This document shows, in pieces, positions 5,860-25,620 of a DNA stretch of 34,376 nt. The notes below the pieces were generated by a model, which was not told the origin of the DNA, did not search any database, and saw nothing but the letters and a program-made list of their open reading frames with translations. The DNA lies in IMG/VR virus record IMGVR_UViG_3300045972_000073, positions 1 to 34,376 of that record; one strand, given 5' to 3'. The number at the start of each line of letters is the position of its first letter. Positions within the stretch are counted from its first letter, which is position 1. The position numbers and the translations under genes were made by a program. The stretch is from a virus.

Positions 5860-6107
5860 GCAAGCTACTCAGGGACATCTGCACGTCGGAGCGGTACGGA
5901 GTGCTGGTGGAACTCGCCAGCGACATCGAGCGGGCCGGGGTGCCCGAGGGAAAGATCGTCACCCTCTACACCGGGTTGGGGGAGTGGCAGTACCACACCC
6001 ACCGCCCCAACTCCCTGGTCTTCTGCCAGGAGTGCCAAGTGCCGGTGAAGCAGGGCGAGTACGTCGCCCACCTCCACGATCACGCGGTGCTGAAGGAGAC
6101 CCCATGA
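5856..6107 (+). CDS. Small protein with a CxxC…HxxxH zinc-binding motif
   Basis: An 83-residue protein from ATG 5856, with GGAGGG at 5843-5848 as ribosome-binding site. I do not recognise a named family. The C-terminal half contains FCQECQ followed by HLHDH (C-x2-C-x16-H-x-H-x-H region), a likely zinc-binding fold similar to C2H2-like knuckles. The N-terminal half is a mixed helix/strand segment ending in EWQYHTHRPN. It sits in a chain of overlapping small genes; its stop TGA 6105-6107 overlaps ATG 6104. A regulatory or host-takeover role would fit such early-arm genes but is not shown by the sequence. Confidence 0.7.
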   Translation: MSKLLRDICTSERYGVLVELASDIERAGVPEGKIVTLYTGLGEWQYHTHRPNSLVFCQECQVPVKQGEYVAHLHDHAVLKETP

Positions 6108-6251
6108 CCCGCTCCGAACGAATCGAAGCCGCTGCCAGGGCGCTCGACAAGGCACTCCAGCAGCCGATCTTGGGCAACGACGAGGGCGAGTCCTGGTGCC
6201 AGGAGCGCGCCGCCCTGGCGGCACCGGTCCGCCCCCAAGGAGAGCAAGTGA
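6104..6251 (+). pseudogene. Small N-terminal ORF apparently fused to the next gene by a C-run indel
   Basis: ATG 6104 follows AAGGAGA and overlaps the previous stop (ATGA). It encodes MTRSERIEAAARALDKAL…, a helical peptide of a type common in phage small-gene arrays. In this sequence the frame runs on without a stop into the downstream repeat protein. If one C is removed from the run CCCCC at 6232-6236, the peptide instead ends …VRPKESK at TGA 6249-6251, giving a GTGA overlap with GTG 6248. That ending closely matches those of neighbouring genes (…APKESKP at 7000, …PPKEKTK at 7680). I therefore read it as a separate ~48-residue gene joined to its neighbour by an indel, real or technical. Confidence 0.5.
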
Positions 6252-7006
6252 AGACCACCAAGAAGAAGTCCACGAAGTCCACGAAGCGCGACCCGAAGAA
6301 GATCCTGGCGTGGTGGTTCTGCGCCCCCGATGCTGACGGAGTGGTCCGTCTGCCCCACGGCGACGGGCGAGTGGTCACGGTCGGTGAGACCCTCTCCGTC
6401 GAGGGCGAGATCGTCGCCTGCCGGTCCGGGCTCCACGCCAGCGTGCGCCCCCTGAACGCGCTCCAGTACGCCCCAGGCGCGATGGTCTGCCGCGTCGAAG
6501 TTTGGGGCGGTGTGAAGGAGGAGGCGGACAAGATCGCAGGCCGGAACCGCCGCGTGCTCTGGATGGCCGACGCTGACCGTGCCCTGCGCCTGTTCGCGTG
6601 CGACTGCGCCGAGGAGGCGGGCCGCGTGGCGAACCATACCGACGAGCGGAGCCTGAACGCGATCCGCGTGGCCCGGCTCTACGCCGAGGGCAGGGCGACG
6701 GTGGACGAGTTGGCCGTTGCCAGGGACGCCGCCTGGGCCGCTGCCAGGGACGCTGCCAGGGACGCTGCCAGGGACGCTGCCAGGGCCGTTGCCTGGGACG
6801 CCGCCTGGGCCGCTGCCAGGGACGCTACCTGGGCCGCTGCCTGGGGCGCTGCCTGGGACGCTGCCAGGGCCGCTGCCTGGGACGCTGCCAGGGCCGCTGC
6901 CAGGGACGCTACCTGGGCCGCTACCTGGGACGCTGCCTGGGGCGCGCAGAACGAGTCGTTGGAGAAGCGGTTGTCGGGCCTCGCGCCCAAGGAGAGCAAG
7001 CCGTGA
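6248..7006 (+). CDS. DUF7666-like phage protein with Ala-rich Arg/Trp tetrapeptide repeats
   Basis: GTG 6248 (252 residues) follows CCCAAGGAGAGCAAG, the same initiation sequence used at 7003 and nearly that at 7682, and starts with GTGAAGACC as at 7682, so it is chosen over the open upstream extension to 6104. The N-terminus is Lys-rich (KTTKKKSTKSTKRDPKK), followed by a ~110-residue globular domain with TLSVEGEIVACRSGLHAS and ALQYAPGAMVCRVE. I match this by memory to phage proteins annotated DUF7666. The C-terminal ~80 residues are [D/A/G]-A-[A/T/V]-[R/W] repeats predicted to form one long helix with an Arg/Trp stripe. Function unknown. The stop overlaps GTG 7003. Confidence 0.8.
   Translation: MKTTKKKSTKSTKRDPKKILAWWFCAPDADGVVRLPHGDGRVVTVGETLSVEGEIVACRSGLHASVRPLNALQYAPGAMVCRVEVWGGVKEEADKIAGRNRRVLWMADADRALRLFACDCAEEAGRVANHTDERSLNAIRVARLYAEGRATVDELAVARDAAWAAARDAARDAARDAARAVAWDAAWAAARDATWAAAWGAAWDAARAAAWDAARAAARDATWAATWDAAWGAQNESLEKRLSGLAPKESKP
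6713..6940 (+). repeat. 19 tandem 12-bp coding repeats (Ala-rich, Arg/Trp alternating)
   Basis: Nineteen consecutive 12-bp units, consensus GACGCTGCCAGG, with no length change between units. Variation is concentrated at two places: the first codon (GAC, GCC or GGC) and the first base of the last codon (AGG or TGG, giving Arg or Trp). Minor changes occur in codons 2 and 3. The units encode the C-terminal helix of the 6248-7006 protein. Such arrays expand and contract easily by slippage or recombination. Confidence 0.95.
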
Positions 7007-10511: not shown

Positions 10512-12965
10512 CTAAGTGGTGGTGTCGGAGATGATGCCGAGGTTCGCCAGCTTGGTGAGCAGGCTGGTGAGGGCCGCGTTCCCGGCCTTGGCCCCGGTGA
10601 CCGCCTGCGCCCCGGCGGCCAGCTGGCAGAGGATCGCCCTCCACTCGTAGGTGTCGGCGGCGTTCTTGTGGCCCAGCATGTAGTAGTCGGCCACGCCCGC
10701 CCCGCCGGGGACCTGGATCCCGAGCCCCCGGTACGCGGCGATGGCGGTGGGGATCGCACCGGAGTTGTACTGGAGGAACTCCGGGCCCATCTTCGCCTCC
10801 TCGTACGCGCTCCAGCCGCCCGCCGAGGTGGGGGTGCCGATGCCACGCGGGGTCGACCGTTTGAGCCTGACCCCGTCCCAGGCGTTGCCGTAGGTGCGGA
10901 TCCAGTTGCCGGTGGAGATCACCACCGCCCCGGTGTGTCCCGCGTAGGTGGAGACGCTGGTGAAGTCGAAGCCCGCCGTGTCGCTGATCGTGGCGTGGTC
11001 CTCGACCCAGTTGTCGGAGACTTCCGTGATCGAGCCCCGGTTGTTGAGGTTCACCCCGATGCCCCAGCGCCCACGGAGCCGGTTGCGCAGGACCCGGAGG
11101 TTCTCCGTGAAGGCGGTGCGCACCAGCCCGGAGTTGGGGAAGGCCACGGAGGTGTCGGCGGGGTCGCAGATCACCTCGTTGTCCGCGATGGTCACCCCGT
11201 CCTGCGTGAAGTAGACGCTGCCCGTGGTCTCCGACTGGAGGTCCACGATCCAGGGGGCCTTGCAGCGCAGCACCCGGTTGTTGCGGATCGCGCTGTTGGT
11301 GAGGCTGTAGGTGCGGATGGCGAAGCAGTTGAGCCCGGCGGTGGGGTCCGTGGACCGCCCACAGTCGTTGATGGTGTTCCCCTCGATCACCATCCCGATG
11401 CCAGCCGCAGCGGTCTGGACCTGATTGAGCCCGCCCTGGATAGCGAAGAACTCCATGCCCTCGATCAGATTGTTCGAGATGCGCAGGTTCTGGGTCGGGC
11501 CGCCCACCTTGATGCCCCAGCCGCAGTTGCGCAGGACGTTGTTGGAGATCAGGATGTTCCGGTCGGTGGTGTTCTGGTAGTTCTCCAGAACGATCGCACC
11601 CATCCCGCCCGAGGGGACGACCGTGGGGTTGGCCGGGTGATCCAGGGCGCTGGCGGAGTTGTTGTTGACGACGACGTTGCCGACGATCTCCACCTCGTCC
11701 GAGCCCTGGGAGATGATCCCGCGCCCCCAGCCACGGTTGGTGCCCGACTCCTGTAGCTTGTAGCCGTCGAACTTCTTGTCGATGATGTTGTTCTGGATCA
11801 CGACGTTGCGGGAGCGGTAGGGGTCGGCGTCGCTCCCGGCGTAGGTGCCGAAGATGCCGATCTGGTCGTCGCACTTGAACGGGCACTCGAACGAGTTGTC
11901 GCTGATCCGCACCCACTGGGAGCAGGTGCCCTGGACCCCGGCGTTCACGTTCCGGTGCTGGTTGTGGTGGAAGTTGAACCGGCGGGTGAGGTTGTAGAAG
12001 CAGGACCCACCCACCGTGTCGAAGAACCGACAGTCCGTGATCTCCACGTTCTCGGTGAGATCGAGGTACAGCATCTGGTTGGCCTGCGACAACTCGATGT
12101 CGGTGTGGTTCTGCCCACGCCAGCCCCGGAAGGTCAGGCCCCGGATCGTGAGACCCTGGAGGTACCAGCGGGTCTGCGCGATCTTCTGCGCGATGGTGTA
12201 GCCGCTGGCCGAGTAGTCAGAGCCGAGGGCGAAGAGTTGGCTGGAGACCGCCCCCTTCCGGCCCGTCACGTCGTACCAGACCTCCGCCCCGTCCTCCCCG
12301 ATGAACGCCACGGGCGTGGTGTTGGGGGTGGTGAAGTAGCCCTGGAAGCAGGCCCAGGACCCACCCGCAGTGGTCCCCATCGTGGCGCAGCGGTACTTGC
12401 CCCGGGGGAAGTAGACCGTCCCGCCCCCGTTCGCCACCATCGCGTTGATCGCAGACTGGATGGCGGGGGAGCAGTCGGTCGTCCCGTCGCCCACCGCGCC
12501 GAAGTCGGTCACGTCGAAGACGCTGGCCCCGCGCGCCGCCAGAGTGCGGGAGGCGGAGGTGCCGGTCGTCTTGAAGGAGGCCAGCCCCACGTCCGCGAAG
12601 GGCGAGAGGATCGATCCCTGGAGCGTGGTGTCCGCAGCTGCGCGCGACGTCACCTCGTCTTGGATCTGGAGTTCCAGCCGGTCGAGGGCCGTCTCCAGCA
12701 CGGTGGGGTCGAAGGTCCCGGCCAGGGGGAAGCTGATGGGCTGCTGGCGCACCGTGGCCCTGGCGATGATCAGCGTGCCGGTCATCGGGTTGACGGCGGT
12801 AACCACCGTCCCAGCGATCGTGTAGTCCACCCCCAGCAGCTTGACCGCGCCGTTGAGAGTGACCACCAGATCGGCGGTGGACAGGAAGGGGAACGGGATC
12901 GTGAACGGCCCGGTGCTCGCCACCGGGCCGTAGGTCACGCTGCTGGCACTCGTCAGAACGGTCAT
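10512..12965 (-). CDS. Tailspike with T7-type N-terminus and pectate-lyase-like beta-helix
   Basis: An 817-residue receptor-binding protein from ATG 12965 (AGAGGAT upstream). Residues ~10-90 resemble the N-terminal virion-binding domain of T7-like tail fibres (PFTIPFPFLSTADLVVTL … GVDYTIAG … IARATVRQQP). After a coiled-coil linker (LETALDRLELQIQDEVTSR) comes the Pectate_lyase_3 entry motif VTDFGAVGDGTTDCSPAIQ and GGGTVYFPRGKY at ~150-200. The next ~450 residues are repeated short strands with Asn/Ile ladders (NVVIQNNIIDKK, EIVGNVVVNNN, LRISNNLIEG), a right-handed parallel beta-helix. Proteins of this build often depolymerise capsule or O-antigen; which glycan is cut cannot be told here. Confidence 0.92.
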   Translation of the reverse strand: MTVLTSASSVTYGPVASTGPFTIPFPFLSTADLVVTLNGAVKLLGVDYTIAGTVVTAVNPMTGTLIIARATVRQQPISFPLAGTFDPTVLETALDRLELQIQDEVTSRAAADTTLQGSILSPFADVGLASFKTTGTSASRTLAARGASVFDVTDFGAVGDGTTDCSPAIQSAINAMVANGGGTVYFPRGKYRCATMGTTAGGSWACFQGYFTTPNTTPVAFIGEDGAEVWYDVTGRKGAVSSQLFALGSDYSASGYTIAQKIAQTRWYLQGLTIRGLTFRGWRGQNHTDIELSQANQMLYLDLTENVEITDCRFFDTVGGSCFYNLTRRFNFHHNQHRNVNAGVQGTCSQWVRISDNSFECPFKCDDQIGIFGTYAGSDADPYRSRNVVIQNNIIDKKFDGYKLQESGTNRGWGRGIISQGSDEVEIVGNVVVNNNSASALDHPANPTVVPSGGMGAIVLENYQNTTDRNILISNNVLRNCGWGIKVGGPTQNLRISNNLIEGMEFFAIQGGLNQVQTAAAGIGMVIEGNTINDCGRSTDPTAGLNCFAIRTYSLTNSAIRNNRVLRCKAPWIVDLQSETTGSVYFTQDGVTIADNEVICDPADTSVAFPNSGLVRTAFTENLRVLRNRLRGRWGIGVNLNNRGSITEVSDNWVEDHATISDTAGFDFTSVSTYAGHTGAVVISTGNWIRTYGNAWDGVRLKRSTPRGIGTPTSAGGWSAYEEAKMGPEFLQYNSGAIPTAIAAYRGLGIQVPGGAGVADYYMLGHKNAADTYEWRAILCQLAAGAQAVTGAKAGNAALTSLLTKLANLGIISDTTT

Positions 12966-12991: not shown

Positions 12992-15900
12992 TCAGTCCCC
13001 GGAGACGGCGTCCTGCGCCATCGTGAGCGGGGTGGCAGGCTGCTTGGCCCCCCGGTCCCCGTACAGCCAGCCACTGGCGTTGTCGAAAATCCCCCGGTTA
13101 TGGACGCTGTCCGGGTTGTTGAACAGATCGGTCTCGTACTTGATCGCGCGTAGCGGGGAGTTGGCGGGGAGGGACCCCGCCATGAGCAGGGTGTTCAGCA
13201 GGTACTTCAGCTTCTCGTCCCCCGTCTTGCGATTGGACATGGCGGTGCGGACGGCCCGGTACCCCGCCTCCGCCAGCGCGTAGCTGGGGGACTGGAGGAG
13301 GCTGGAACTCTTCATCTTGCCCGTGACGGCGAGGTCCGCAGCCGCCGCACCGCCGCTGCCCCAACCCGGGAGCATGGCGAACGGAGCCGCCATCTCGTTG
13401 CGGAGGAGCCACGTGCTCCAGTCCTCGTCGTGCTCCTTGCCGTGGCCCAGCATCAGCTTGCCCATCACCACGCCGAAGGTCTGCATCGCCAGCATCCGGG
13501 CCCCGTACTCGATCCCGCTGACGCCCTTCTGGAAGGCCGACTGTTCCCGGGCGTTGAGGACCCGCTCCGCCCCCTCCTCGCGCGCCATCTGGAACAGCTT
13601 GGAGTAGTAGCCGTGGAACATGATGTTCATGCCCAGCCAGCCCTTGTCCGCCAGCAGCGCCGCCATCTCCTTCGGATCGTGCGTCGGCATGGAGGAGCGC
13701 ACCGCCTCGTCCGCCTTCTTCTGCGCCGCCTCCTTGGGCATGTGCAGGATCGCACGGTCGTACGTCATGTTAAAGATCGTGGCCGACATCATCTCGTCCA
13801 TGATCCGGATGTGGTCGAAGGCGTGGGAGCGGAAGAAGTCGGCGGTCTTGCCCACCGCGCCCGGGTGCTTCTGCATGAGATCGTCGTACCACCGCCGCAT
13901 GTCCGACTCGACCGTGCTGCGGCGATGCTCCAACTCGACCGGGGAGTTGGAGTGCGCCCTGAGCACCGCCTCGTTGGGGAGGCCCGACAGCATCCGGTCG
14001 AAGGCCCCGGCCAGCACCTCCTGCATCGCCGGGAGGGCGTGGACCGCGCCCCACCCATCCCGCATGGCACCGACCGCCAGCGGGTGCCACAGGTGCGCCA
14101 TCGCCACAGCACCGTTGTAGCCGATCGCGGAGTACGCGATCCCGCTGCGCGCCCACCGGGCCCACTTCGACTGTTCTTGGAGGTGCGACGGGATCGAGTC
14201 CGCAGCGTCCAGCGCCACGCGCTGGAGCCAGGCGTACGGCTGCTTGGCCTTCTCGGGAGAGAGATAGTCCGCCACCGCCTGCTTGAACGTGCCGTTCAGC
14301 AGGACGCGCCCAGCCTCCTGCACGAAGTCCCCGAAGGCGTAGTCGTGCAGCACCTCCCGGATGTGCTGGGGGTAGTTGGCCCAGTTGAGATCGGGGGCGC
14401 GACCCACGTAGTTGGTCCGCGACTCCAAGAACCCGCGCGGGGTCTGCGGACGACCGGCGGCGTCCGTCCCAAGGCGAGCCGCCATGCGTTGGTTGGCCGA
14501 CTGATCGTTGGAGAGATCCCACTTCACGGGCCAGTAGCCGCCCCGGTAGGATGTCTCCGTGCCGTCAGCGAACTTGATCGCGTACCCCATCAGCTTGGCA
14601 GGCTCCAACTCCAGCCCGTACCGCTTCATGTGGACCTCCTGCTCCAGCGGGAGCAGCTTCTTCTCCGAGATCTCGTGCTCTTTCTGGATGTGCTCCAGGT
14701 CCGCCCGGGTCAGGTACTTACCCGCCGCCTTCAGCACGTCATGCTCCGTCAGGTGCATGGAAGTGAGCAGCTTCTTGCGCCCGGTCTCCGTGCCCATCCA
14801 CTTGAGCATGGTCAGCAGGTAGTTCTTGGTCAGCGGGGTGCTGTACCTGCCGTTGACGCCCAGGTTGTCCTTGGTGGCGAGACCGAGATCCTCCGCCAGC
14901 CCCGGCAGGACCTTGAAGCGATCCTTCTGGGCCGCGTTGTCATCCCACAGGGCCTTGTAGTCGGCGTAGATCGTCTTCTGGAGGTTCTCGAACGTCGTGC
15001 GCGCCTGGACGAAGTTGTCGAAGATCGGCTCCGCCACCCCCATCTGCTTGAGGAGAACGCGGATCTCGGACCAGTTGGCGTCCCGGGCCTCCATGAAGCG
15101 TCGCGCCGACGCCCACTTGGACTCCTGGGTCTTGTCCACCGCGACGAAGGGCAGCGGGATCGGGTTGCCGTCCTTGTCCAGCTTCACGTCGGGGGTGGGC
15201 TGGCCCGACATGTGCTCGACGGCGGCGGCGACGATCTCGTCCGCGCTGCGGCGCTGATCCAGGATGCGCCGCTCGTTCGCCTTCTTGGCGATGTGCTGGA
15301 TGTTCTTGATCGCGTCGTAGACGAACTTCGCGTCCTGCGGGGTCAGATCCTCGAACGAGGTCGTGCGGGAGAGAATCTCCCTGAGTCGATCGACCGCCAT
15401 CTTCGGCGCGTCGGGGGAGCGCGGGATCTCCTTGCCGTCAGGGCCCTTCTCCGGGATGTCCTTCGCCCACAGCGGGGCGAGGTGCGAGCCCCACCCGTTG
15501 TCGGGGTGGTTGACCACCGCCAGGAAGGCGTCGATCTTCGCGGGGTCGGGCTGCGCGCCCTCCCGCATACCGATCGCCGCCAGGATGGAATCGTGCAGGT
15601 CTTGCAGCGACTTGTGGACCTTGCCCAGCGCCCCACGCCACTCGTCGGAGTTGACCTCCCGCTTGATGCTCTCCCACCGCTCCGCCACCGTCTTGGAGAC
15701 GACCCGGGACTCGCGGTACAGCCAGTGCTGGAGCGCCGCCTTGTCGAGCAGGTCCCACGCCTTGTCGATCTTGCCAGCGGCCAGAGCCTCCTGGGCCTGC
15801 CGGGCGTAGTCCCCCGCGCTCTTGGCGAACGCCTCGGGCTTGATCTCCTTGATGGTGCCCCCAGCCAGGATCTCCTGAGCCTGCGCCCTCCACATCTCGG

Positions 15901-18900
15901 GGGTCATGTTCGACCGCAGCTGACGGCGGTAGTCGAGGTTCTGCGATAGCACCCGCAGCATCTTGGTGATCGCCAGCGTGGTCTTGGAGGTGTGAACCCC
16001 GTCCAGCGCCGCCGCCGCCAGGGCAGTGGGATTCTGGATCAGGTCGTTGTTGTACGCGCTCTGGAGCCTAGCGTCCCGCTCCCGAGTGATGTGCTCCCCT
16101 TCCGGCAGGGCGTTGCCCAGGCGGGAGAGCATCATCTCGATCCCGTTGGCGGTCTCCGACTGCTTCTTCTGGAAGCCAAACTCACGCGACCAGTCGTCCA
16201 GCGGGAGGGACTTGTCCTCGCTCTTGGTGAGGAGATCGCGATTGACGGAGCGGATGCGCTCCACCATCTCCTTGCCGCCGTACGCCTCGATCTCCGACTC
16301 CAGCATGCGGGCAGGCTTGCCGTCCGCACGGGTGAAGAGGATCTTGCGTTCCTCCGACCCGTCGAGCGTCTCGCCGTGCGTGACGAAGTGGAGGAGGTTG
16401 TAGACGGGGCTCTGCTTCAACTCCTCGCGCACCTCAGCCGTGATCCGCTCCTTCTCCTTGGTGAGGAAGCGGCGGTCCTTGGCCTTGATCGCGCGAAGGA
16501 GGCTCTCGTGAGCCTCCTGCAACGCCTGCTGCCGCGTCTCCTTGAGCGCCGCCTTCTCCTCCGGGGACTTGGCGTGCTCCGCGACGGCGTCCGACAGGTT
16601 GAGGACGCCGCTGTCGGCTACGGCTTTCCGGGTGGCTCGGTCGGCGGTGGCGAGGACTTCAGCGGGTTGCGGCTGATCACGTCCTTCACCCTCCGCCGCA
16701 TCTCCACGTCCGTCATGCCCGGCGTCCACACCACTTCCCCGTGCAGACTCATCTCGCCGGGTTGCAGCTTCCCTTGCTGCGCTCTGCTCAGCATCTGTTG
16801 CATCACGGACGGTGATTCGTCCTGCGGCTGATCCCTTTTCATGGAGCCCCTTCTTCCCGTCTTCCGTCTTCTTGAACGCCTGGAGCGCGGCCTCTGCGGC
16901 GCTGCTGTTCTCACCGATCCCCGACGCGAAGCCCATGCCCTTGAGCATGTAAATCTTCCCGGCTTCCACGTCATGGTACACCACCACGGCGGTGGCCGCA
17001 CGCTGCTTGATTTCCTCGTCCACCGCCTTCAACGTCTCCAAATCTCGATGGGATCCGAGGAACTCGTCGCCGTGTGGATGCGACGCGCTGATCATGTCGC
17101 CCGTGACGGCTTCGACGATGGCCCCCGTCATCTTGATCGCGTTGTCCGCCAGTCCCTTGCTCGCCGCGTTCATCGCCGCGAGATCACGAAGGTCGCCAGA
17201 CCAGACGTGTTCCCCCGGCTTGAGGGACGCAGCCAGCCCAGCGGAGGAGAGCAGCCCCGTCATGGGGTCGTAGTACGCCTTCAGGGCCTCGCCCGCCGGG
17301 AGGGCCCCGTACGCCTTCTCCAGGTCGGGGTGGATGGGCTGATCGACCTTGTCCTCCGGGAAGGCGATCTTCTTCGGGTCGGTCTCCACGACGCCGCGCG
17401 GCTTTTCCGGCGGCACCTCCAGCAGCTTGCCATCCGGCCCGTAGGTGCGGGGCTTGGCCCTGGTGCCTGCGTTCTCTGCCGCCTTGCGAGCGGCGAGATG
17501 CTCTGCCTGCGCCTTGCTGATGGACTCCGACGCCGCCCCGGTGAGGGAGAACCCCTTGGCGGCGGTGATCTCCTGCGCGCGGGCCAGCAGCTGGGCCAGA
17601 CGCTCCTGGCCCTTGCCGTCGTGATCGGGAAGGATGGCGCGGAAGTCGCCCCCCACCTTGCCGATCTCGATCCCCAGTTCCTTGGCCGCACGGTGGAGCG
17701 CCACGCCCTGCGCCCGGTACAGGAAGTCCCCGGTGTCATGCCCGCTGGCTGCGAGGTCGTTGACCCACTTCGCGCCCTCGGTGGCGATGTCGCCCTCGAT
17801 GAACTTGACGCCCTGATCGAGCAGCTGCTTGCGGCGCACCCCGTACCCACGCTCGTTGTAGAGCCCGGTGTTGGGGTCGTAGTAGTACGACCGCATGCGC
17901 TGGTCGGGGGTCAGGCTGTTGTGGTGCGCGGTGACGCGCTCCTCCAGCGAGGCCCGACCCGCCTCGGTGTACGCGCCACCCGGGCCGAAGGAGTGTTCGT
18001 AGACCTCCTTCATCGTGAGGTCCTTCGCACCGCCGTGGATCGCCTTCACGGAGAAGAGGACGGCCCTGGCCTTCGCGTCGTTGGACTCCCCCGGGCGCAC
18101 CCCCGCCTTCCCCGAGTCGTCGCCGCCCAGCCACTCCAGGTGACGCTGGTAGATCAGCTTCTCCTCGGGCGTGAACCCCTTGAGACCGCCCTTGAGGATC
18201 CGCCCGGCCTCCTGCGTGCTGGCCTCCGCCCGACGCCGCACCTCGCCCAGCGACAGGTCCCGCTGGTCGAACCGGCCCTCCATGCGGATCAGTTCCGAGA
18301 AGTTGGCCGACGCGCCGATCTTGCCAGCGTGCTCGATGGGGATGTAGAGGTCCGTCAGGCCGCGCCGCACCTGGCGATCGTAGAACACCCCGCCGTCGCC
18401 CATCGCAGCCGCCACGATGTCTCGGAGGCTGGCCCCCTGCGCCTTGGCGTGCTCCTCCGCCAGCGCCCGGTCGAGGAAGAGGTAGCGCGCGCCACCGACC
18501 TCCTTGGAGGTCGTCTTGATCATCTGGGCGTACAGCGTGGGGTTCTCCACCGCCAGCTTGTCCGCCTCGTAGAAGTCCCCCATCGCCTTCAGCCGCTTGC
18601 CGGTCTCGATGGCACGCGCGTAGCGCCCGTGCTCCTCCACGAAGCGCCGACCGACGCCGAACACGAAGATCGGACCCATGTAGTTGGCGTCCGACCAGCC
18701 CGACCTGATCGTAGACGCCAGGGCGTCCGCGTCGGGGGTCTTGCCGGTGAGGCTCAACTCCACCAGCTGATCAGCGGCCTCGTTGAAGCCGTTCTGCGCC
18801 GCCATCGTGGCCTTGCCGTAGAGCCAGTCAGTCCCCAGCCGCGCCACGCCCCGCCCCGCGATGCCCCGAAGGCTGTCAGCCTTCAACGCCCCGGTGAAGA

Positions 18901-20107
18901 CCTGCTTCTCCGCCAGCCCTAGCGCCGCGAGAGGTCGCGTGCCGAACACGTCGGCCAGCCCCACCGACATCAGCTTGCCGCCCAGCGCCGCCTCACCCGC
19001 CGCCAGGGGAAGCGCCAGCAGTGCGTTCCCGCCCGACGCCTCCTTGGCCCGATCGTACAGACCGGGAAGCAGATACACCGAGTTGGCGATCGTCACACCT
19101 CGGAGGTGCGCCGCCGACAGCAGCTGGATCGCCTCGGGCGTGGTGAGCGCCCCGGCCTTCGCCACGGTGGCCGCCTCCCCAACCAGCCCAGCCTCCGCCA
19201 CCCCGGTGAGGGCCCTCGCCTTCGACAGGGCAGCGACCTCGCCGCCCGCGTACGCCGCCAGCGCCATTGGGATGAACTCCACCGCCATCTTGGTGGCCTT
19301 CGCCGCGTACAGCGTCTTCTGCCCCTCGACAGGGCCGATCTGATCAAGGCTTCCGCGCTCCGCCGCGGCCTTCGCCGATCGCTCCTCCGCCGCTGCGCCG
19401 CCGTGGTACCACCGCGCCACAGGGCTGCCCTCCCGATCGGCAGGGAGCAGGTCCAGCAGGCCCGCCGCACCCTCGTTGAGGATCTGTCCCGTCTTGTGCC
19501 ACATCTCCGGGATGTCGCTGGTGATCACCTTCTTCGCCAGCGCGTACGGGTACGGGTCCACGCCCGGGTCGTCACCGTAGTTGGGGAGCCCCGTCAGCCA
19601 GAACTGCGCGCCCTTCAGCGCGCCCGTGTTGGTGAGCGGGATCGTCGGGTTCTCGCGGATGTATCCGGCGAACTCCGGGTGCTGCTTCTTGGCCCCCTCC
19701 CAGTCAAACTGACCCGCCATCTCCCGGTACTTCGGCAGGTTCTGGGCGATCGCGTCGAAGTCCACCGCCCCGCCAGTGATCGCCAGCCACGAACCGACCT
19801 CGCTCGTCTCCCCCAGCTTGGCCTGCGGACGAGACGCCGCCCACTTGATGTACTGCTCGTGCAGGGACTTGTCGTTGGAGTACCGGAACATGTCCTGGGA
19901 AAACCCAGGGATCACCTTATCCATCGGGCCCGTGTACAGCGTCGGGTCCTGCGCCGGGGACATCGGAACCTGCGTGTCCCGCCCGTAGCTGGAGGGAACC
20001 TGCGGGGACGTGGTGGCGTCCTGCCCGTAGCCGCCCTTCGGGGGCGTGGTGGCGTCCTGCCCGTAGCCGCCCTTCGGAGGGGTCTGGTCGTCCTGCCCAT
20101 ACGGCAT
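12992..20107 (-). CDS. Giant ejection (internal virion) protein with two tandem GGDEF-like domains
   Basis: A 2371-residue protein in the position of T7 gp16, almost twice its usual length. ATG 20107 is preceded by AGGAGAT. Residues 3-36 are a 12-residue YGQD repeat; ~280-400 hold several hydrophobic Ala/Gly/Leu helices. Domain 1 (~738-880) has DPNTGL (D744), D773, VND (N783), GHDTGD (789-794) and GGDF (819-822). Domain 2 (~940-1090) has DPMTGL (D947), D972, N980 and HGDEF (1012-1016), then a GMGFASGIG strand. These are GGDEF landmarks at near-normal spacing. A low-complexity linker (~1095-1160), long helical regions and a C-terminal hydrophobic segment (ARMLAMQTFGVVMGKLML) follow. I see no lytic transglycosylase ES…GNP motif. 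It likely enters the host during DNA ejection. Confidence 0.9.
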   Translation of the reverse strand: MPYGQDDQTPPKGGYGQDATTPPKGGYGQDATTSPQVPSSYGRDTQVPMSPAQDPTLYTGPMDKVIPGFSQDMFRYSNDKSLHEQYIKWAASRPQAKLGETSEVGSWLAITGGAVDFDAIAQNLPKYREMAGQFDWEGAKKQHPEFAGYIRENPTIPLTNTGALKGAQFWLTGLPNYGDDPGVDPYPYALAKKVITSDIPEMWHKTGQILNEGAAGLLDLLPADREGSPVARWYHGGAAAEERSAKAAAERGSLDQIGPVEGQKTLYAAKATKMAVEFIPMALAAYAGGEVAALSKARALTGVAEAGLVGEAATVAKAGALTTPEAIQLLSAAHLRGVTIANSVYLLPGLYDRAKEASGGNALLALPLAAGEAALGGKLMSVGLADVFGTRPLAALGLAEKQVFTGALKADSLRGIAGRGVARLGTDWLYGKATMAAQNGFNEAADQLVELSLTGKTPDADALASTIRSGWSDANYMGPIFVFGVGRRFVEEHGRYARAIETGKRLKAMGDFYEADKLAVENPTLYAQMIKTTSKEVGGARYLFLDRALAEEHAKAQGASLRDIVAAAMGDGGVFYDRQVRRGLTDLYIPIEHAGKIGASANFSELIRMEGRFDQRDLSLGEVRRRAEASTQEAGRILKGGLKGFTPEEKLIYQRHLEWLGGDDSGKAGVRPGESNDAKARAVLFSVKAIHGGAKDLTMKEVYEHSFGPGGAYTEAGRASLEERVTAHHNSLTPDQRMRSYYYDPNTGLYNERGYGVRRKQLLDQGVKFIEGDIATEGAKWVNDLAASGHDTGDFLYRAQGVALHRAAKELGIEIGKVGGDFRAILPDHDGKGQERLAQLLARAQEITAAKGFSLTGAASESISKAQAEHLAARKAAENAGTRAKPRTYGPDGKLLEVPPEKPRGVVETDPKKIAFPEDKVDQPIHPDLEKAYGALPAGEALKAYYDPMTGLLSSAGLAASLKPGEHVWSGDLRDLAAMNAASKGLADNAIKMTGAIVEAVTGDMISASHPHGDEFLGSHRDLETLKAVDEEIKQRAATAVVVYHDVEAGKIYMLKGMGFASGIGENSSAAEAALQAFKKTEDGKKGLHEKGSAAGRITVRDATDAEQSAAREAATRRDESARGSGVDAGHDGRGDAAEGEGRDQPQPAEVLATADRATRKAVADSGVLNLSDAVAEHAKSPEEKAALKETRQQALQEAHESLLRAIKAKDRRFLTKEKERITAEVREELKQSPVYNLLHFVTHGETLDGSEERKILFTRADGKPARMLESEIEAYGGKEMVERIRSVNRDLLTKSEDKSLPLDDWSREFGFQKKQSETANGIEMMLSRLGNALPEGEHITRERDARLQSAYNNDLIQNPTALAAAALDGVHTSKTTLAITKMLRVLSQNLDYRRQLRSNMTPEMWRAQAQEILAGGTIKEIKPEAFAKSAGDYARQAQEALAAGKIDKAWDLLDKAALQHWLYRESRVVSKTVAERWESIKREVNSDEWRGALGKVHKSLQDLHDSILAAIGMREGAQPDPAKIDAFLAVVNHPDNGWGSHLAPLWAKDIPEKGPDGKEIPRSPDAPKMAVDRLREILSRTTSFEDLTPQDAKFVYDAIKNIQHIAKKANERRILDQRRSADEIVAAAVEHMSGQPTPDVKLDKDGNPIPLPFVAVDKTQESKWASARRFMEARDANWSEIRVLLKQMGVAEPIFDNFVQARTTFENLQKTIYADYKALWDDNAAQKDRFKVLPGLAEDLGLATKDNLGVNGRYSTPLTKNYLLTMLKWMGTETGRKKLLTSMHLTEHDVLKAAGKYLTRADLEHIQKEHEISEKKLLPLEQEVHMKRYGLELEPAKLMGYAIKFADGTETSYRGGYWPVKWDLSNDQSANQRMAARLGTDAAGRPQTPRGFLESRTNYVGRAPDLNWANYPQHIREVLHDYAFGDFVQEAGRVLLNGTFKQAVADYLSPEKAKQPYAWLQRVALDAADSIPSHLQEQSKWARWARSGIAYSAIGYNGAVAMAHLWHPLAVGAMRDGWGAVHALPAMQEVLAGAFDRMLSGLPNEAVLRAHSNSPVELEHRRSTVESDMRRWYDDLMQKHPGAVGKTADFFRSHAFDHIRIMDEMMSATIFNMTYDRAILHMPKEAAQKKADEAVRSSMPTHDPKEMAALLADKGWLGMNIMFHGYYSKLFQMAREEGAERVLNAREQSAFQKGVSGIEYGARMLAMQTFGVVMGKLMLGHGKEHDEDWSTWLLRNEMAAPFAMLPGWGSGGAAAADLAVTGKMKSSSLLQSPSYALAEAGYRAVRTAMSNRKTGDEKLKYLLNTLLMAGSLPANSPLRAIKYETDLFNNPDSVHNRGIFDNASGWLYGDRGAKQPATPLTMAQDAVSGD
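20000..20101 (-). repeat. 36-bp tandem repeats encoding YGQDATTPPKGG at the ejection-protein N-terminus
   Basis: Three near-identical 36-bp units in a row encode Y-G-Q-D-(A/D)-(T/Q)-T-P-P-K-G-G, starting at residues 3, 15 and 27. A fourth decayed copy (SYGRDTQVP) follows at residue 40. The segment should be disordered and may serve as a packing or docking tail. It lies at the start of the 2371-residue gene. Confidence 0.85.
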
Positions 20108-20116
20108 CGTGATCTC

Positions 20117-22039
20117 CTACTTCTTGTACATGACGGTGTCGCTACCGGGCATCCGGTAGGGGGTGCCGGGAGGAGCCTTGTCGTACTCTTCCTTCGACAT
20201 CTCCGGGGCGGTGACCTTCACTGGTACCTTCTTCGGCGGGGGCGGCGGGGGAGCCCCGGCCCGCTCCCCGGCGACGGTCCCAGGCTTGGCGATCTCCGCC
20301 CTCAGCCCCGGGCGTGTGTCATCGACGAAGCCCAGGAACCTCTTGCCGATCGTCACCGGGTCCCGCCACTTCTTCATGGCGTCCTCGTAGACCTTGTCGG
20401 CATCGACCGGACGGTCCTTACCACCGCTCGCGTTGGCGGCGGCGCGGAGGGTGGCCTCGATGTCCGCCTTGGCCTTGTGGACGCCAGCGACCTGCTCCGC
20501 CGAGACCGAGACGCCCGCCATCCCGCCCGTGGCGATCTTGGTCAACTCCTGCTCCGCGTCCCGCAGCTTCTCCTTGACCCACGGCGGATCGGCCACGACC
20601 TTCGCCGCGCCACCCACCTTCTTGACGAGGTCGGCGTAGTCGCGAGCGTTCAGTGGGGTCTTGCCAGCAGGCCCGTACTGCTGCTCGAACTCCCCGATCC
20701 CCTGCGTGCCGTCGTACATCTTGGGCGTGGGGGCGTCGGCGGCGGTCTCCTTGTAGTACGCCGACAGCGCCGACCACTCGTCATCCGTGCGCTTCGACGG
20801 CGTCGGGGCCCGCGCGTCCTTGAGCAGGGCCTCCTTGTAGGAGGTGAGCAGCTTCTCCGCCTCCCGGGTGCTCGCGATCTGTTTCCACGCAGCGGAGGAG
20901 GTCACGGCAGTGATGTCGCGCGTGGCGTTCCACACGGAGGCCACCCCGCCGATGTACGTGCTGTACTCGGCAGCCAGCTTGACCTGCTCCCGCGCGTTGT
21001 AGGTGGCGAGCGAGAGGTTCGCCTGCTCGAACTCCTTGGCCTTGCCCGGGATCACATGTCGCACGCCCTTCGCGTCCTTGGGGGCGTACTGATCCTCCAG
21101 CACCGCGAACCCGGCGGGGTTTGCCGCCTCCCAGCGCGAGAGCGGACCCACCTTGAGGGCGGCGTTGATGCCCGACGCCCTGCCGCCCTCGTCGTCGGAA
21201 ATCCCCGCCAGCTTGTGCTTCCACAGCGCGAGATCCTTCGCGCCCAGCGTCGTCGCCACGTTGAACTTGTTCCCGGAGACGGTGACATCCCCCTCCAGCA
21301 GTTTCAGCGCGTGGCGCGCCGCCGCCGCGCTTTCCGTCCCGGTGGTGGAGGCGACCGCCACGGAGGCGTCGAGGTAGGCATCGAGGCCCTCCTTGACCGA
21401 CTTGGTCAGGGCCTGCGCGACGAAGCCGCTCTTGTCCGCCGGGTCGTGACCCTTCTTGATCAGGTACTTCACGTCCTCGTGAACCATGCTGGTGATCCCA
21501 GCCTCCAGATCACTCTTCGACTTCTCGAACGCGCCCTCCGTCTCGGTGGGGAGGACGGCATCCTTCGCCTGCTCCTTGCCCAGCGACCGCTTCCCCACGT
21601 AGCTGTCGTGCTCCCAGGTCGCGTACTCCGTGGCGGCATGGTCCTCCACCCGCTGGGCGTGGATCAGGATCCGTCGCCGGGACTCGGCTCGGAACAGCTT
21701 CTGCGCCAGCGGGTCCTTGATCGTCTTGAGTTGCTCCTCGATCGCCTCGTCCATAGCGTCGAGCACCGGCTTGGTGTTCTGCGCCGCCTCGCCCTTGGCC
21801 CGGCTGCGGTACTGCGCCACGATGGCGCTGACCTGTCGGTCGGCTGCGATCGTACGGTCATCGGCCACGGTCTCCGCCGTCATCTGCCGCTGGTGTGCGA
21901 TGATCTGACGGGTCAGGCTCTCCGCATCCCCCACCGCCTGCGTGAACGAAGAGCGGTCCACGATCGCAGGGCGCTCCATCGGGAGCCCCAACGGCTGGAC
22001 CTTGACCTCGGACTCCGTCTTCTCGGGCTGCTGGGCCAT
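20117..22039 (-). CDS. Ejection (internal virion) protein in the T7 gp15 position
   Basis: A 640-residue protein; the ATG directly follows the previous stop (TAAATG) with AAGGAC upstream. It is almost wholly alpha-helical and Ala/Lys/Glu-rich, as expected for podovirus ejection proteins that assemble on the portal and form a conduit across the periplasm. Segments such as LDAMDEAIEEQLKTIKDPLA and GFVAQALTKSVKEGLDAYL fit the family's N-terminal region. The C-terminus carries a proline run (GAPPPPPPKKVPVKV) followed by SKEEYDKAPPGTPYRMPG, a likely linker plus short docking motif. Assignment rests mainly on gene order between gp14- and gp16-like genes and on composition rather than on diagnostic residues. 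Confidence 0.75.
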   Translation of the reverse strand: MAQQPEKTESEVKVQPLGLPMERPAIVDRSSFTQAVGDAESLTRQIIAHQRQMTAETVADDRTIAADRQVSAIVAQYRSRAKGEAAQNTKPVLDAMDEAIEEQLKTIKDPLAQKLFRAESRRRILIHAQRVEDHAATEYATWEHDSYVGKRSLGKEQAKDAVLPTETEGAFEKSKSDLEAGITSMVHEDVKYLIKKGHDPADKSGFVAQALTKSVKEGLDAYLDASVAVASTTGTESAAAARHALKLLEGDVTVSGNKFNVATTLGAKDLALWKHKLAGISDDEGGRASGINAALKVGPLSRWEAANPAGFAVLEDQYAPKDAKGVRHVIPGKAKEFEQANLSLATYNAREQVKLAAEYSTYIGGVASVWNATRDITAVTSSAAWKQIASTREAEKLLTSYKEALLKDARAPTPSKRTDDEWSALSAYYKETAADAPTPKMYDGTQGIGEFEQQYGPAGKTPLNARDYADLVKKVGGAAKVVADPPWVKEKLRDAEQELTKIATGGMAGVSVSAEQVAGVHKAKADIEATLRAAANASGGKDRPVDADKVYEDAMKKWRDPVTIGKRFLGFVDDTRPGLRAEIAKPGTVAGERAGAPPPPPPKKVPVKVTAPEMSKEEYDKAPPGTPYRMPGSDTVMYKK

Positions 22040-22603
22040 TTACCCGTCCTTGGGGCCGCTGTAGCCCACGCTGGGAAACTGCTGGCTGTAGTCCACCAGC
22101 GGATCCACGGGGCCGTTGCTGTTGCCGGCGGCCCCACCCCCTGAGTCCACGTTCCCCGACTTCGGGTCGAAGGACCCTGACGCGGCTCCGTAGGACGCCA
22201 CCGACGAGATGAAGGACACCGCCTCACCGGCCATCGCCCACTTCGCTGAGGTCTGATCGGCCTTCGCCTCGTCGCGGTAGTTCGCAGCCTGGAGTTCGTA
22301 GCCCAGCGCGGCGCGAGCCGCGTTCATGCGGATCTTCGCCACGTCGAGGGCCGTCACTGCCGCCGTGCTCTCCCGCACCGACGCTGGGGAGCCCTCGTTG
22401 GTGACGACGTTGCCGTGGGCGGCGGCAGCAGTCCCGGCCGCCTTGATCAGACCGCCCCGCTCTTTCATGTCCGCAGCACCCGTGAGACCGAGATCGCGGG
22501 AGTCCCCCGCCATCATATCCGACCGGCGAGCGTTGTTGGACGCTGCCGCCGCTTTGGCCTGATAGGCGTCCACCGCCGACGCGCCCGAGATCACACCGCC
22601 CAT
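22040..22603 (-). CDS. Internal virion protein in the T7 gp14 position
   Basis: A 187-residue protein from ATG 22603, preceded by GGGAG and one base from the previous stop. The N-terminus MGGVISGASAVDAYQAKAAA followed by long Ala/Arg helices (VAKIRMNAARAALGYELQAA) is typical of gp14-like proteins, which embed in the outer membrane during DNA ejection. A small hydrophobic helix (SVASYGAASG region, ~140-160) may be the membrane-active part. The C-terminal ~40 residues are Gly/Ser/Pro-rich and likely disordered. The gene order gp13-, gp14-, gp15-, gp16-like is intact. Confidence 0.7.
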   Translation of the reverse strand: MGGVISGASAVDAYQAKAAAASNNARRSDMMAGDSRDLGLTGAADMKERGGLIKAAGTAAAAHGNVVTNEGSPASVRESTAAVTALDVAKIRMNAARAALGYELQAANYRDEAKADQTSAKWAMAGEAVSFISSVASYGAASGSFDPKSGNVDSGGGAAGNSNGPVDPLVDYSQQFPSVGYSGPKDG

Positions 22604-22604
22604 A

Positions 22605-23042
22605 TCAGACTCCCAGCTTCATGTAGAAGAACACCACGCCGTTGATCTCGCGCTGCCACTGGTATCTGAACCCCAGCCGGTGCAGCCACCGCACCGCCTT
22701 GTCGTATCGGGAATCTACCAGATTCCACAGCCGGGGGTGCCGCTCTCTCAGATCCTCCAGCAGCACCTTGCTGGCCTTGTAGAACGCCTTCGGGTACCTG
22801 TCCGCCGACTCCCCGGAAAGCATCCAGACCAGCCCGTCCTGCGCACGGACCCCGTACATCGCCATGATCTCTTCGCCCTGCCAGACGGTCCAGGCTTCGC
22901 TGGACTCCGCCAGACACAGAAACAGGGCCTCCTCGGGGCCCTGCTCCAGCGCAGCCATCTCTCTACGATCATCAGCCCGCATCACCCACGCCAGCCTCAC
23001 GGCGTCGTCGTTGCAGGCTGGGGTGACGTTAGTCGCCGCCAA
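22605..23042 (-). CDS. T7 gp13-like (DUF2833, GNAT-related) virion protein
   Basis: A 145-residue protein. I choose TTG 23042, with GAGGTGG about 5 bases upstream, because the residues from there (NVTPACNDDAVRLAWVMRAD) match the usual start of the family, in which 'at..da..la..MR..D..E' precedes the core. ATG 22982 would remove this part. The core shows the acetyltransferase-like pattern of gp13 relatives: AWTVWQGEEIMAMYGV, SKVLLEDLRERHPRLWNLVD and a closing RWLHRLGFRYQ. In T7, gp13 is needed for assembly of ejection proteins into the virion. The start overlaps the end of the tail-tube gene by 14 bases. It may be annotated as an acetyltransferase, but the CoA-binding motif is not obvious. Confidence 0.8.
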   Translation of the reverse strand: MAATNVTPACNDDAVRLAWVMRADDRREMAALEQGPEEALFLCLAESSEAWTVWQGEEIMAMYGVRAQDGLVWMLSGESADRYPKAFYKASKVLLEDLRERHPRLWNLVDSRYDKAVRWLHRLGFRYQWQREINGVVFFYMKLGV

Positions 23043-25620
23043 TGTCCACCTCGCGCCCGATGCCGACGATCGTTGCAGGGAGCGGCGCGTTCTGGCGGAT
23101 GACGACCCGGCCACCGTGGTCGTAGGTGTCCGCGACCCGGACGTGGTCGAGCCCGGTGAAGGGGGTGGGCGTCCCGTAGTTGTTGATCACCCTGCGGTCC
23201 ACCCGCGAGAAGAACGTCTTGCGGTCTGCCGCCGCCATCTGGAGGCCGAGCGAGTCCACCAGTTCGATGCTGACGCGGCTGATCGTCTTCACGTTGGAGC
23301 GGACGTTGGCGTTGGGGATGATCAGGTCCAGCGTCTCCAACTCGTTGGGGATCTCCAGGCCGATCACCACCCGGAGCCCCGCCGCCACGGCGGGGAGGGT
23401 GACCGACCCACCAGCGACCGTCAGCGGCCCGGCCACGCCGCCGTTCACCAGGGCCCAGACCGCGAGCCCCTCCAGATGTCCCAGCCCGGCGAACACCGTC
23501 TGGCCCGCCGTCGCCGTGTAGACCTTGGAGGCGTCGGTGAAGGTGCCCTGCGACACGTCCACCTCACCATCCGGCAGGCGGGGAAGCACGCGGGTGGCGA
23601 ACCGCTCCACGTACCGGAGCCCCGCCCGGTTCACCGTCACGTAGACCGCATGCTCCGAGCCCTCCAAGATCGAGCACACGCTCTCGAACTTGTGGGTGCC
23701 CAGGTCCAGCGGCGTCCCGTCCCCGGGCCCGGTGTCGTGCCAGTGCCACGCCTTGATCTTCTGCTCCTTGTTGTACGTCAGCCCCAGCAGCACCCCATCG
23801 CTGCGGATGCACCAGACCGTGCCATCGGGCAGCTTCTGGTAGGCCCAGTCGGTGATCTGGTAGGACTCGAACAGGTGGCGCGACATGGTCGTCACGTCCT
23901 CCCCGTCGTAGTTCTGCATGAGGTAGGCGTACGTGAGATCGCGGATCGCGTTCCCGGTGCTCTGCACGTACAGCGCGGTGTTGCCCACGATGATCGGATC
24001 CAGCCAGGAGATCCCGTACCGGACCTGAAGGTGGGCGTCGATGCTGTTGGGTACGAGCGGGCCGCCGTTGGCTCCGCCGAAGTTCCAGACCCCGTGGCTA
24101 GTGAAGAGGAGCAGCGTCCGCATGGACGCCATCGCACGGACCTCCTCGCGTTGGAGGGAGGCGAGCGTGGAGTCCACCGGATCGGTGGCCTGCGTGACGT
24201 TGCCCTGCGCGACGAAGTTCCCGTACTGGCTGGTCCTCGACGCGAGGACCCGTGACGGGTTGAGATCAGACCCGCCAAACATGCGCCGCTGCTCAAAGTG
24301 GGTGCAGCAGTACGGGTACTTGCTGGGCGCGCTGCCGGTGGCGTAGAGATACTTCCACTGCGTGCCGATCCCCGTGCCCCTCGGCATCCACTGCGCCGTC
24401 CCATCGAAGTTGACCGGAACCAGGCCGCTCGTCATCCACGGACCCAGTGCTGGGGAGGCCGCAGACGTGCCTGCCGTCGTGCAGTAGAACACCTCGCCGT
24501 CGTTCAGCACCTCATCGTTCAGCGCGTACGCCGTGCTGGGAGCCCAAGCGTTCACCGCCCCATCATCAATCGCAGCCCCCGTACCGGATGGACCCGACCC
24601 CGTCCCTGCCGACCACCCGGTCTGGAGACACTCATACACGCTGCTGTTGGCGACCACCTGATCGCTCACCGAGTAGCGAGTGGCCCGCGTCCACGCAGGC
24701 GCGGGGGAGACGAAGATCTCCTTCCGCAACTGAGGCATTGCTGAGAAGTCGGGGGCGATCCCCGTGTCTTCAAAGTACGGCCCGGAGGCCACCGAACCCC
24801 CCGCCATAACCTGCCTCACGCGGGTGGAGGGGGAGATCGTCCCGATGTATCCGTACACCCCCGCCCGTCCCTTGTACAGGTTGATCAACACGGTCCCCGA
24901 GATCAGCCCCGCCAACGTACAGTCGATCCACGCAGTCCGGTCAGCGTAACAAGCCACGATCCCACTGTTCTTGGTGGCGAGCGGGGGTGCCTTGGCCGAC
25001 GCCCAACTGGGATCCGACTCGTTGCCCTGCACGTCCACCAACGTAGTCACCCACCGCCACGCTCGCCCCGGGTGCTGCGTGTCGACCACGGGGAAGTAGT
25101 TGGTGTCGGTGGTGAGCGCGGGCACCCCGCCCATCGCCATCGGGGATTTCGTGCTGACCTTGGCGATCGTCCACGTCAGGTTCGTCGCGTCCGTGCGCTT
25201 CAGAACCCGGGGCTCGTAGCTGGGGTGCGTCACGACGATCTCGTCGCCCGACTGGGCGAACTTCAGCTTCCAGAGATCCGGACCCTGGTACGGGGTGGCG
25301 AGCGCGTCGGTGCCGCCGTTGATCGGCGTCTGGAGCACACCCTGCTTCCACACCCGCACGTAGAGGTGGCCGAACTCCAGCACGAGGTTGTTGCTGAGGG
25401 AGTAGTCGAACGCCTCCAGCCGCACCGCGTAGGTCGAGTCCTTGACGGCCCCGCAGAGCACGGTGCCGGGCCGGTTGAGCAGCGCCCCACGCTGGTCCAC
25501 CAGCCACCCGTGACACAGCCGCAGGGCCTGCGCGTACTGCGCGAGGTCGGAGCGCCCGTAGAGGCGGGGGTCGTACTCCCCCTGAGAGAACGCGACCTGC
25601 CGGATGTCCTTCGGTGCCAT
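23029..25620 (-). CDS. Tail tubular protein B (T7 gp12-like nozzle)
   Basis: An 863-residue structural protein from ATG 25620, whose start overlaps the tail tubular A stop (TGATG), with GAGG upstream. The N-terminus carries the family signature FSQGEYDPRLYGRSDLAQY … GWLVDQRGALLNRPGT and then VRLEAFDYSLSNNLVLEFG plus LYVRVWKQG, as in gp12-like nozzle proteins. The middle contains Trp-rich strands and FEQRRMFGGS (~residue 440), also typical. The length is close to that of T7 gp12. It forms the distal part of the short tail through which DNA passes. The two stretches WAPSTAYALNDEVLNDGEVF and WTRATRYSVSDQVVANSSVY look like small chitin-binding-like carbohydrate modules inserted into the family scaffold. 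Confidence 0.92.
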   Translation of the reverse strand: MAPKDIRQVAFSQGEYDPRLYGRSDLAQYAQALRLCHGWLVDQRGALLNRPGTVLCGAVKDSTYAVRLEAFDYSLSNNLVLEFGHLYVRVWKQGVLQTPINGGTDALATPYQGPDLWKLKFAQSGDEIVVTHPSYEPRVLKRTDATNLTWTIAKVSTKSPMAMGGVPALTTDTNYFPVVDTQHPGRAWRWVTTLVDVQGNESDPSWASAKAPPLATKNSGIVACYADRTAWIDCTLAGLISGTVLINLYKGRAGVYGYIGTISPSTRVRQVMAGGSVASGPYFEDTGIAPDFSAMPQLRKEIFVSPAPAWTRATRYSVSDQVVANSSVYECLQTGWSAGTGSGPSGTGAAIDDGAVNAWAPSTAYALNDEVLNDGEVFYCTTAGTSAASPALGPWMTSGLVPVNFDGTAQWMPRGTGIGTQWKYLYATGSAPSKYPYCCTHFEQRRMFGGSDLNPSRVLASRTSQYGNFVAQGNVTQATDPVDSTLASLQREEVRAMASMRTLLLFTSHGVWNFGGANGGPLVPNSIDAHLQVRYGISWLDPIIVGNTALYVQSTGNAIRDLTYAYLMQNYDGEDVTTMSRHLFESYQITDWAYQKLPDGTVWCIRSDGVLLGLTYNKEQKIKAWHWHDTGPGDGTPLDLGTHKFESVCSILEGSEHAVYVTVNRAGLRYVERFATRVLPRLPDGEVDVSQGTFTDASKVYTATAGQTVFAGLGHLEGLAVWALVNGGVAGPLTVAGGSVTLPAVAAGLRVVIGLEIPNELETLDLIIPNANVRSNVKTISRVSIELVDSLGLQMAAADRKTFFSRVDRRVINNYGTPTPFTGLDHVRVADTYDHGGRVVIRQNAPLPATIVGIGREVDIGGD

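Follow-up and report, generated by a model that had tools for sequence, protein, structure and literature searches.

The window (the whole 34,376-base virus record analysed here) encodes a giant protein of 2371 amino acids with two successive GGDEF-fold domains, a degenerate domain A followed by a nearly intact domain B. The presence of two such domains, which the earlier note had proposed from motifs, was borne out by three lines of evidence (profile searches, colinear relatives and the confident predicted structure of one relative), and the homology of both segments to GGDEF domains is confirmed as not due to chance. The asymmetry between a dead and a near-intact domain, together with the A-B order, is kept across divergent giants. 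On balance we favour the reading that the two domains form a mobile GGDEF module which several phages carry in their giant virion-type proteins (ejection or polyvalent) and which would act as a virion-delivered guanine-nucleotide device.

The reading frame of the giant is intact, and residue N of the protein begins at window position 20107-3(N-1). The parts of the protein are:

12992..20107, minus strand: giant ejection/polyvalent-type protein, 2371 aa, bearing the GGDEF module; match to phrog_9880, homologues in 37 phage records
17453..17920, minus strand: domain A, degenerate GGDEF domain, residues 730-885, from profile searches and family alignment
17282..17452, minus strand: linker between A and B, residues 886-942, length and sequence varying among relatives
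16847..17281, minus strand: domain B, near-intact GGDEF domain, residues 943-1087, with D972, N980, D988, P1011, HGDEF 1012-1016, GMGFASGIG and a C-terminal helix
17060..17077, minus strand: residues 1011-1016, the PHGDEF loop in domain B, unchanged in 4/4 readable sequences, the window included
13118..16654, minus strand: conserved C-terminal core, residues 1152-2330, common to the giants of BPP-1, HU1, PfDIW6, Carin1, AF and others

The landmarks named in the earlier note are at the residues it gave: DPNTGL at 744, N783, GHDTGD at 789-794 and GGDF at 819-822 in domain A, DPMTGL at 947 and HGDEF at 1012-1016 in domain B. It was also right that D972 and N980 are 8 residues apart, that both signatures are degenerate (A has only GGDF, and in the HGDEF of B a His replaces the first Gly) and that no RxxD inhibition site lies just before the HGDEF of domain B. 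Its choice of D773 as the metal-type Asp did not hold: this residue is 10, not 8, residues before N783, and family alignments place A775 at the position of PleD D327.

We built a GGDEF HMM from eight canonical GGDEF domains, leaving out the window and its tandem relatives. It scored the window giant at 35.5 bits over two stretches in register, residues 740-855 (24.4 bits) and 943-1080 (8.3 bits). The best of 1000 local-composition shuffles reached 9.3 bits for the whole protein and 8.1 bits for a single stretch, and the reversed protein scored -1.1. With 8.3 bits against a shuffle maximum of 8.1, domain B taken alone is marginal, so its support comes from the relatives. When the domain-A region was compared with the PDB by phmmer, two diguanylate cyclases ranked first (E 0.012 and 0.017). 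Family profiles gave clearer results: hhalign matched domain A to canonical GGDEFs with probability 99.4 (E 5e-21), domain B to canonical GGDEFs with probability 97.2 (E 4e-11), and A to B with probability 97.1 (E 5e-11). With the domain A profile, 46 PDB sequences scored E <= 0.01 (best 3e-10), almost every one of them a protein named as GGDEF or diguanylate cyclase, including PleD at E 2.7e-5, and the top PDB matches of the domain B profile were diguanylate cyclases (best 6eib, 7e-7). In both, profile similarity to the GGDEF fold family, with PF00990 taken broadly, extends over the domain.

The profile search suggested as a check by the earlier note succeeded for both domains with hhalign and the HMMs, but PF00990 itself gave no match to the window giant at any E up to 10. 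This silence is the one point in favour of taking the motifs as chance matches in a long low-complexity protein. That explanation is contradicted by the shuffles, the reversed sequence, the colinear relatives L105, L098 and L103, in which PF00990 is above cut-off, and the L105 structure, and we regard it as ruled out for practical purposes.

Relatives of the pair are few. IMG/VR scans with single proteins (module, C-terminal half, tail protein) found no relatives, and relatives in that collection were reached only with alignments as query. An alignment of C-terminal halves retrieved 80 loci; GGDEF-directed scans added L098 and L103, and searching with the tandem brought in L105 and, from a bacterial genome collection, L109. 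The complete A-B pair, in the same order, was found in L098, L105 and L109. L103 matches positions 1-285 of the 365 in the tandem profile (E 1e-60), and its contig ends just before the PHGDEF position. The same colinear pair is present in at least three other giants and probably in a fourth, the truncated L103. In pairwise comparison the window matches L098 over residues 465-1072 (E 4e-12) and L105 over residues 724-1084 (E 3e-19), and identity among the proteins that keep the domain B metal Asp and acidic pair is about 25-40%. The pair is rare: apart from the window, the searched collections yielded it 4 times. Sampling of 385 alphaproteobacterial and 398 phylum-wide genomes, with five candidates scored per genome, found only the pair already known; tblastn gave no match to the L109 or L105 module in phages, nor to the L109 module in plasmids.

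The surroundings of these relatives differ. The L103 giant is preceded by an endolysin-type gene, which follows the tail gene. The L105 giant has a DarA_C domain and a match to phrog_1926, 'released from the phage upon host infection', and the gene before it we take, on our own reading of the sequence, to be a terminase fragment. L109 lies on a short contig of an alphaproteobacterial MAG and is at most a putative viral sequence. Degenerate GGDEF domains with the motif RGGSLVAW or RRGNTVAF, still above the PF00990 cut-off, occur in L103 (7965-8411) and L098 (7968-8408); PHROG families 5594, 9661 and 14602, of unknown function, match the same stretches and could represent GGDEF families of phages. 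The viral contigs L099 (7974-8384) and L100 (807-1220) encode short GGDEF proteins that stand alone and have the motifs AGDEF/SGDEF, and their N-terminal signature (MSEAELYAALYQDPLTG) is common to the GGDEF domains of the giants.

The two domains have lost different residues. PleD positions are assigned from what is generally known of PleD and from the family alignments. Domain A of the window keeps D744xxTGL, K780, N783-D784, GH789-790 and D794, while it has insertions and its motif has shrunk to GGDF 819-822. K332, N335, D336, G339-H340 and D344 (PleD numbering) are kept in domain A of 5/5 sequences; at the D327 position the window has A775, L105 has S, L109 has E, L098 has Q and L103 has D, and the GGDEF loop is replaced across the five (GGDF, AGDI, GNAL, GNTV, GGSL). 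In domain B, D327 (D972), N335 (N980) and D344 (D988) are kept in 5/5 sequences, Gly1 of the motif is His in every member where the motif is readable, and the K332 position of the window is A. Only one half-site of the window therefore has the metal Asp, at D972, with A775 in its place in domain A. The guanine-reading Asn and Asp are present in both, as N783 and D794 in A and as N980 and D988 in B, and PleD-type N335 and D344 confer GTP specificity (PMC7186502). The GG[DE]EF motif of active diguanylate cyclases is absent from both (A GGDF, B HGDEF), and we do not file the protein as one. By its residues domain A is predicted to be catalytically dead yet retains those for guanine recognition. 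Domain B retains the catalytic residues except motif Gly1, and its residues would place any activity there.

Structure prediction, the other check the earlier note had named, gave a divided result. The L105 module was modelled confidently by AF2 with ten sequences (pLDDT 90.0, pTM 0.85), and its domain B is GGDEF-like, an alpha/beta palm fold matching GGDEF crystal structures (Z 17.4 and rmsd 1.9 over 141 residues against DgcR, Z 15.9 against PleD). The VIA-align rows cover domain B almost exclusively, and the fold of domain A is supported by profiles, not by structure alignment. The model of the window module itself, from four sequences, was poor (pLDDT 44, pTM 0.31); GGDEF entries filled the first 20 Foldseek rows (best E 1.4e-3), and a model this weak gives only a hint. 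In a chain of two domains, so high a pTM (0.85) suggests a fixed A-B arrangement, with the orientation read from pTM alone.

The neighbourhood of the giant is that of late virion genes:

20117..22039, minus strand: 640-aa protein directly upstream of the giant, in the slot of a structural lysozyme/endolysin in relatives
22040..22603, minus strand: internal virion protein, phrog_418
23029..25620, minus strand: tail protein, phrog_376, same family upstream of the L098 and L103 giants

The late-gene row runs from a portal-type head-tail adaptor (phrog_332) and the major head protein (phrog_212) through the tail, internal virion and 640-aa proteins to the giant, and a tail-spike-like gene follows. 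We looked for a family match of the 640-aa protein in the window and found none. Residues 1156-2330 of the giant match phrog_9880 at E 1e-68. Its core relatives are the giants of Pseudomonas phages HU1, PfDIW6 and AF, Cobetia phage Carin1, Bordetella phage BPP-1 (Bbp10) and others, which usually come after a structural lysozyme or endolysin gene. The C-terminal match of phrog_9880/BPP-1 type and this slot point to an ejection-type giant of the BPP-1/epsilon15-like branch, with both the C-terminal core and the gene order shared. The earlier note had placed the protein at the T7 gp16 position; the slot is indeed functionally similar, but by sequence the C-terminal half is of phrog_9880/BPP-1 Bbp10 type, and no sequence kinship with T7 gp16 came up in the searches made. 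The domains found in the window giant are the GGDEF pair and the phrog_9880 core. A Pfam search found no second enzymatic domain in it, and the matches to Herpes_UL56, OCRE, DUF3362 and ORC3_N were below cut-off and set aside.

Two other proteins of the window are worth recording. In the tail-spike-like protein adjoining the giant (10512-12965, minus strand), similarity to other spikes lies mainly within the first 200 residues, a pattern expected of a swapped receptor part. Among the early genes, the product of 5984-7006 (plus strand), 340 aa long, has a DUF7666 domain (E 7e-9).

The portion of the giant in which the GGDEF module lies differs from phage to phage, and the module is missing from most of the homologous giants, as it is from most of those sharing the C-terminal core. 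One homologous giant, L053 (IMG/VR 3300001213_000075), has a canonical GGDEF domain (RLGGDEF), matched by PF00990 at E 5e-18 and flanked by the conserved N- and C-terminal parts of the protein. The canonical-only HMM found nothing convincing in the other giants beyond the window pair and this one domain, and among 12 + 50 records with a related giant, PF00990 matched only L053. The variable stretch of the L053 giant looks like a cargo slot; just after the GGDEF domain, at residues about 1264-1500, is what we read in the sequence as an ADP-ribosyltransferase-like segment (HGSPHDFEKF...YGWGLYFAGKKEIADWY).

Four matches to domain A in the phage collection are GGDEF-type sequences from unannotated faecal records. 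MT837980.1 and MT836355.1, labelled 'Bacteriophage sp.', look bacterial, with ferrous iron transporter-like and LacI-type sensor plus GGDEF genes, and are probable bacterial contamination of that collection. Limnohabitans phage DC33 (PQ492659.1) is filed as Inoviridae despite a 39-kb record and a giant podovirus-type ejection protein.

The mechanism we propose starts from the gene context, from which the giant would enter the host cell together with the DNA. The tail gene, internal virion gene and giant standing in one row in the window appear to support delivery, and we consider it quite likely that the giant is delivered with the virion. Inside the cell A and B would pack as an intramolecular pseudo-dimer holding guanine nucleotides, and binding of such nucleotides by the module is predicted as probable. 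Early in infection domain B would then make, or the pair would sense, a guanine dinucleotide such as c-di-GMP or linear pppGpG. Real catalysis, in domain B if anywhere, is conceivable but doubtful. The role in 'c-di-GMP or GTP binding or synthesising' given to the module in the earlier note seems plausible.

A classical diguanylate cyclase requires two competent half-sites face to face. With domain A lacking the catalytic residues, a normal symmetric cyclase with two half-sites would be impossible within one chain, and with one half dead a single chain could form only one bond, giving linear pppGpG, unless the B sites of two molecules meet. The module might be an injected single-chain, Cas10-like pseudo-heterodimeric cyclase or guanylyl-linking enzyme, in which A presents GTP and B forms the bond, and by which the phage floods or spoofs the host guanine-dinucleotide signal before any phage gene is read; taken as a whole, we hold this to be rather unlikely.

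It is also possible, though we would not expect it, that both domains are dead and that the module is a receptor or sponge for GTP, c-di-GMP or another cyclic dinucleotide, which senses or blunts a host signal at entry. In favour of it are the loss of catalytic residues from domain A across the family and the His for motif Gly1 in domain B, and degenerate GGDEF domains that solely bind nucleotides are well known, such as PopA, FimX and CdgG. A pure binder would not need the metal Asp and acidic pair of domain B, however, which are unchanged at the low identity given above, and the RxxD inhibitory site is not seen just before HGDEF. A role as mere structural spacer, reusing the GGDEF fold as a compact globular domain without nucleotide function, would fit a region that varies between phages and the lack of the module in most homologous giants, as well as the insertions and shortened motif of the window domain A. 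We consider it improbable, as it is the nucleotide site (N, D, D, PHGDEF) whose residues are invariant, and not the hydrophobic core alone, and the same pair occurs outside the tail-gene context in the DarA_C-bearing L105 protein.

Under the favoured reading of a mobile, virion-delivered module, the data suggest that some phages deliver a device for binding or making a nucleotide signal. If true, phages would bring this device ready-made in the particle and act on host second messengers or nucleotide-based defences within the first minute of infection, and the pair would join Cas10 as a second case in which one chain combines a dead and a live GGDEF-like palm. The module is a small, stable construct of about 360 aa, which makes the question directly testable.

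The earlier note knew of no described system of this kind. The kind is already described for polyvalent proteins, which are injected with DNA; in the portion of Iyer et al. 2017 (PMC5512222) considered here, GGDEF is listed as a rare domain of the phage ones, and interference with, or use of, cyclic-nucleotide signals is proposed for them. The claim of novelty is therefore narrowed to the asymmetric pair, which that portion does not describe and of which we found no description in the open papers searched, itself no proof of absence. The window protein resembles polyvalent proteins in having GGDEF inside a very large protein of an invading element thought to be delivered with DNA. In that portion of the paper GGDEF is treated in general, whereas here a conserved dead A and near-intact B with PHGDEF are found, and they occupy the place of the ejection protein in gene orders of podovirus type.

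The giants of BPP-1 (Bbp10), HU1, PfDIW6, Carin1 and AF share the C-terminal half and gene position but not the module, and the L053 giant carries a single canonical GGDEF, predicted to be probably active, in contrast to the pair in the window. PleD, DgcR and WspR (PF00990) match domain B of the window family in fold and nucleotide-site residues; unlike them, the pair has no canonical GG[DE]EF, its A is without the metal Asp, and its two domains belong to a single chain, not to a homodimer. In Cas10 of type III CRISPR, one chain contains both GGDEF-like palms, of which only the second has the catalytic motif GGDD (PMC7854544). No sequence match to Cas10 was seen, and no Cas10 chain was among the structure matches listed for L105, which are almost only of domain B. 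The likeness to Cas10 Palm1/Palm2, a dead and a live palm paired in one chain, is by layout only, and the residues kept here point to guanine, whereas Cas10 uses ATP.
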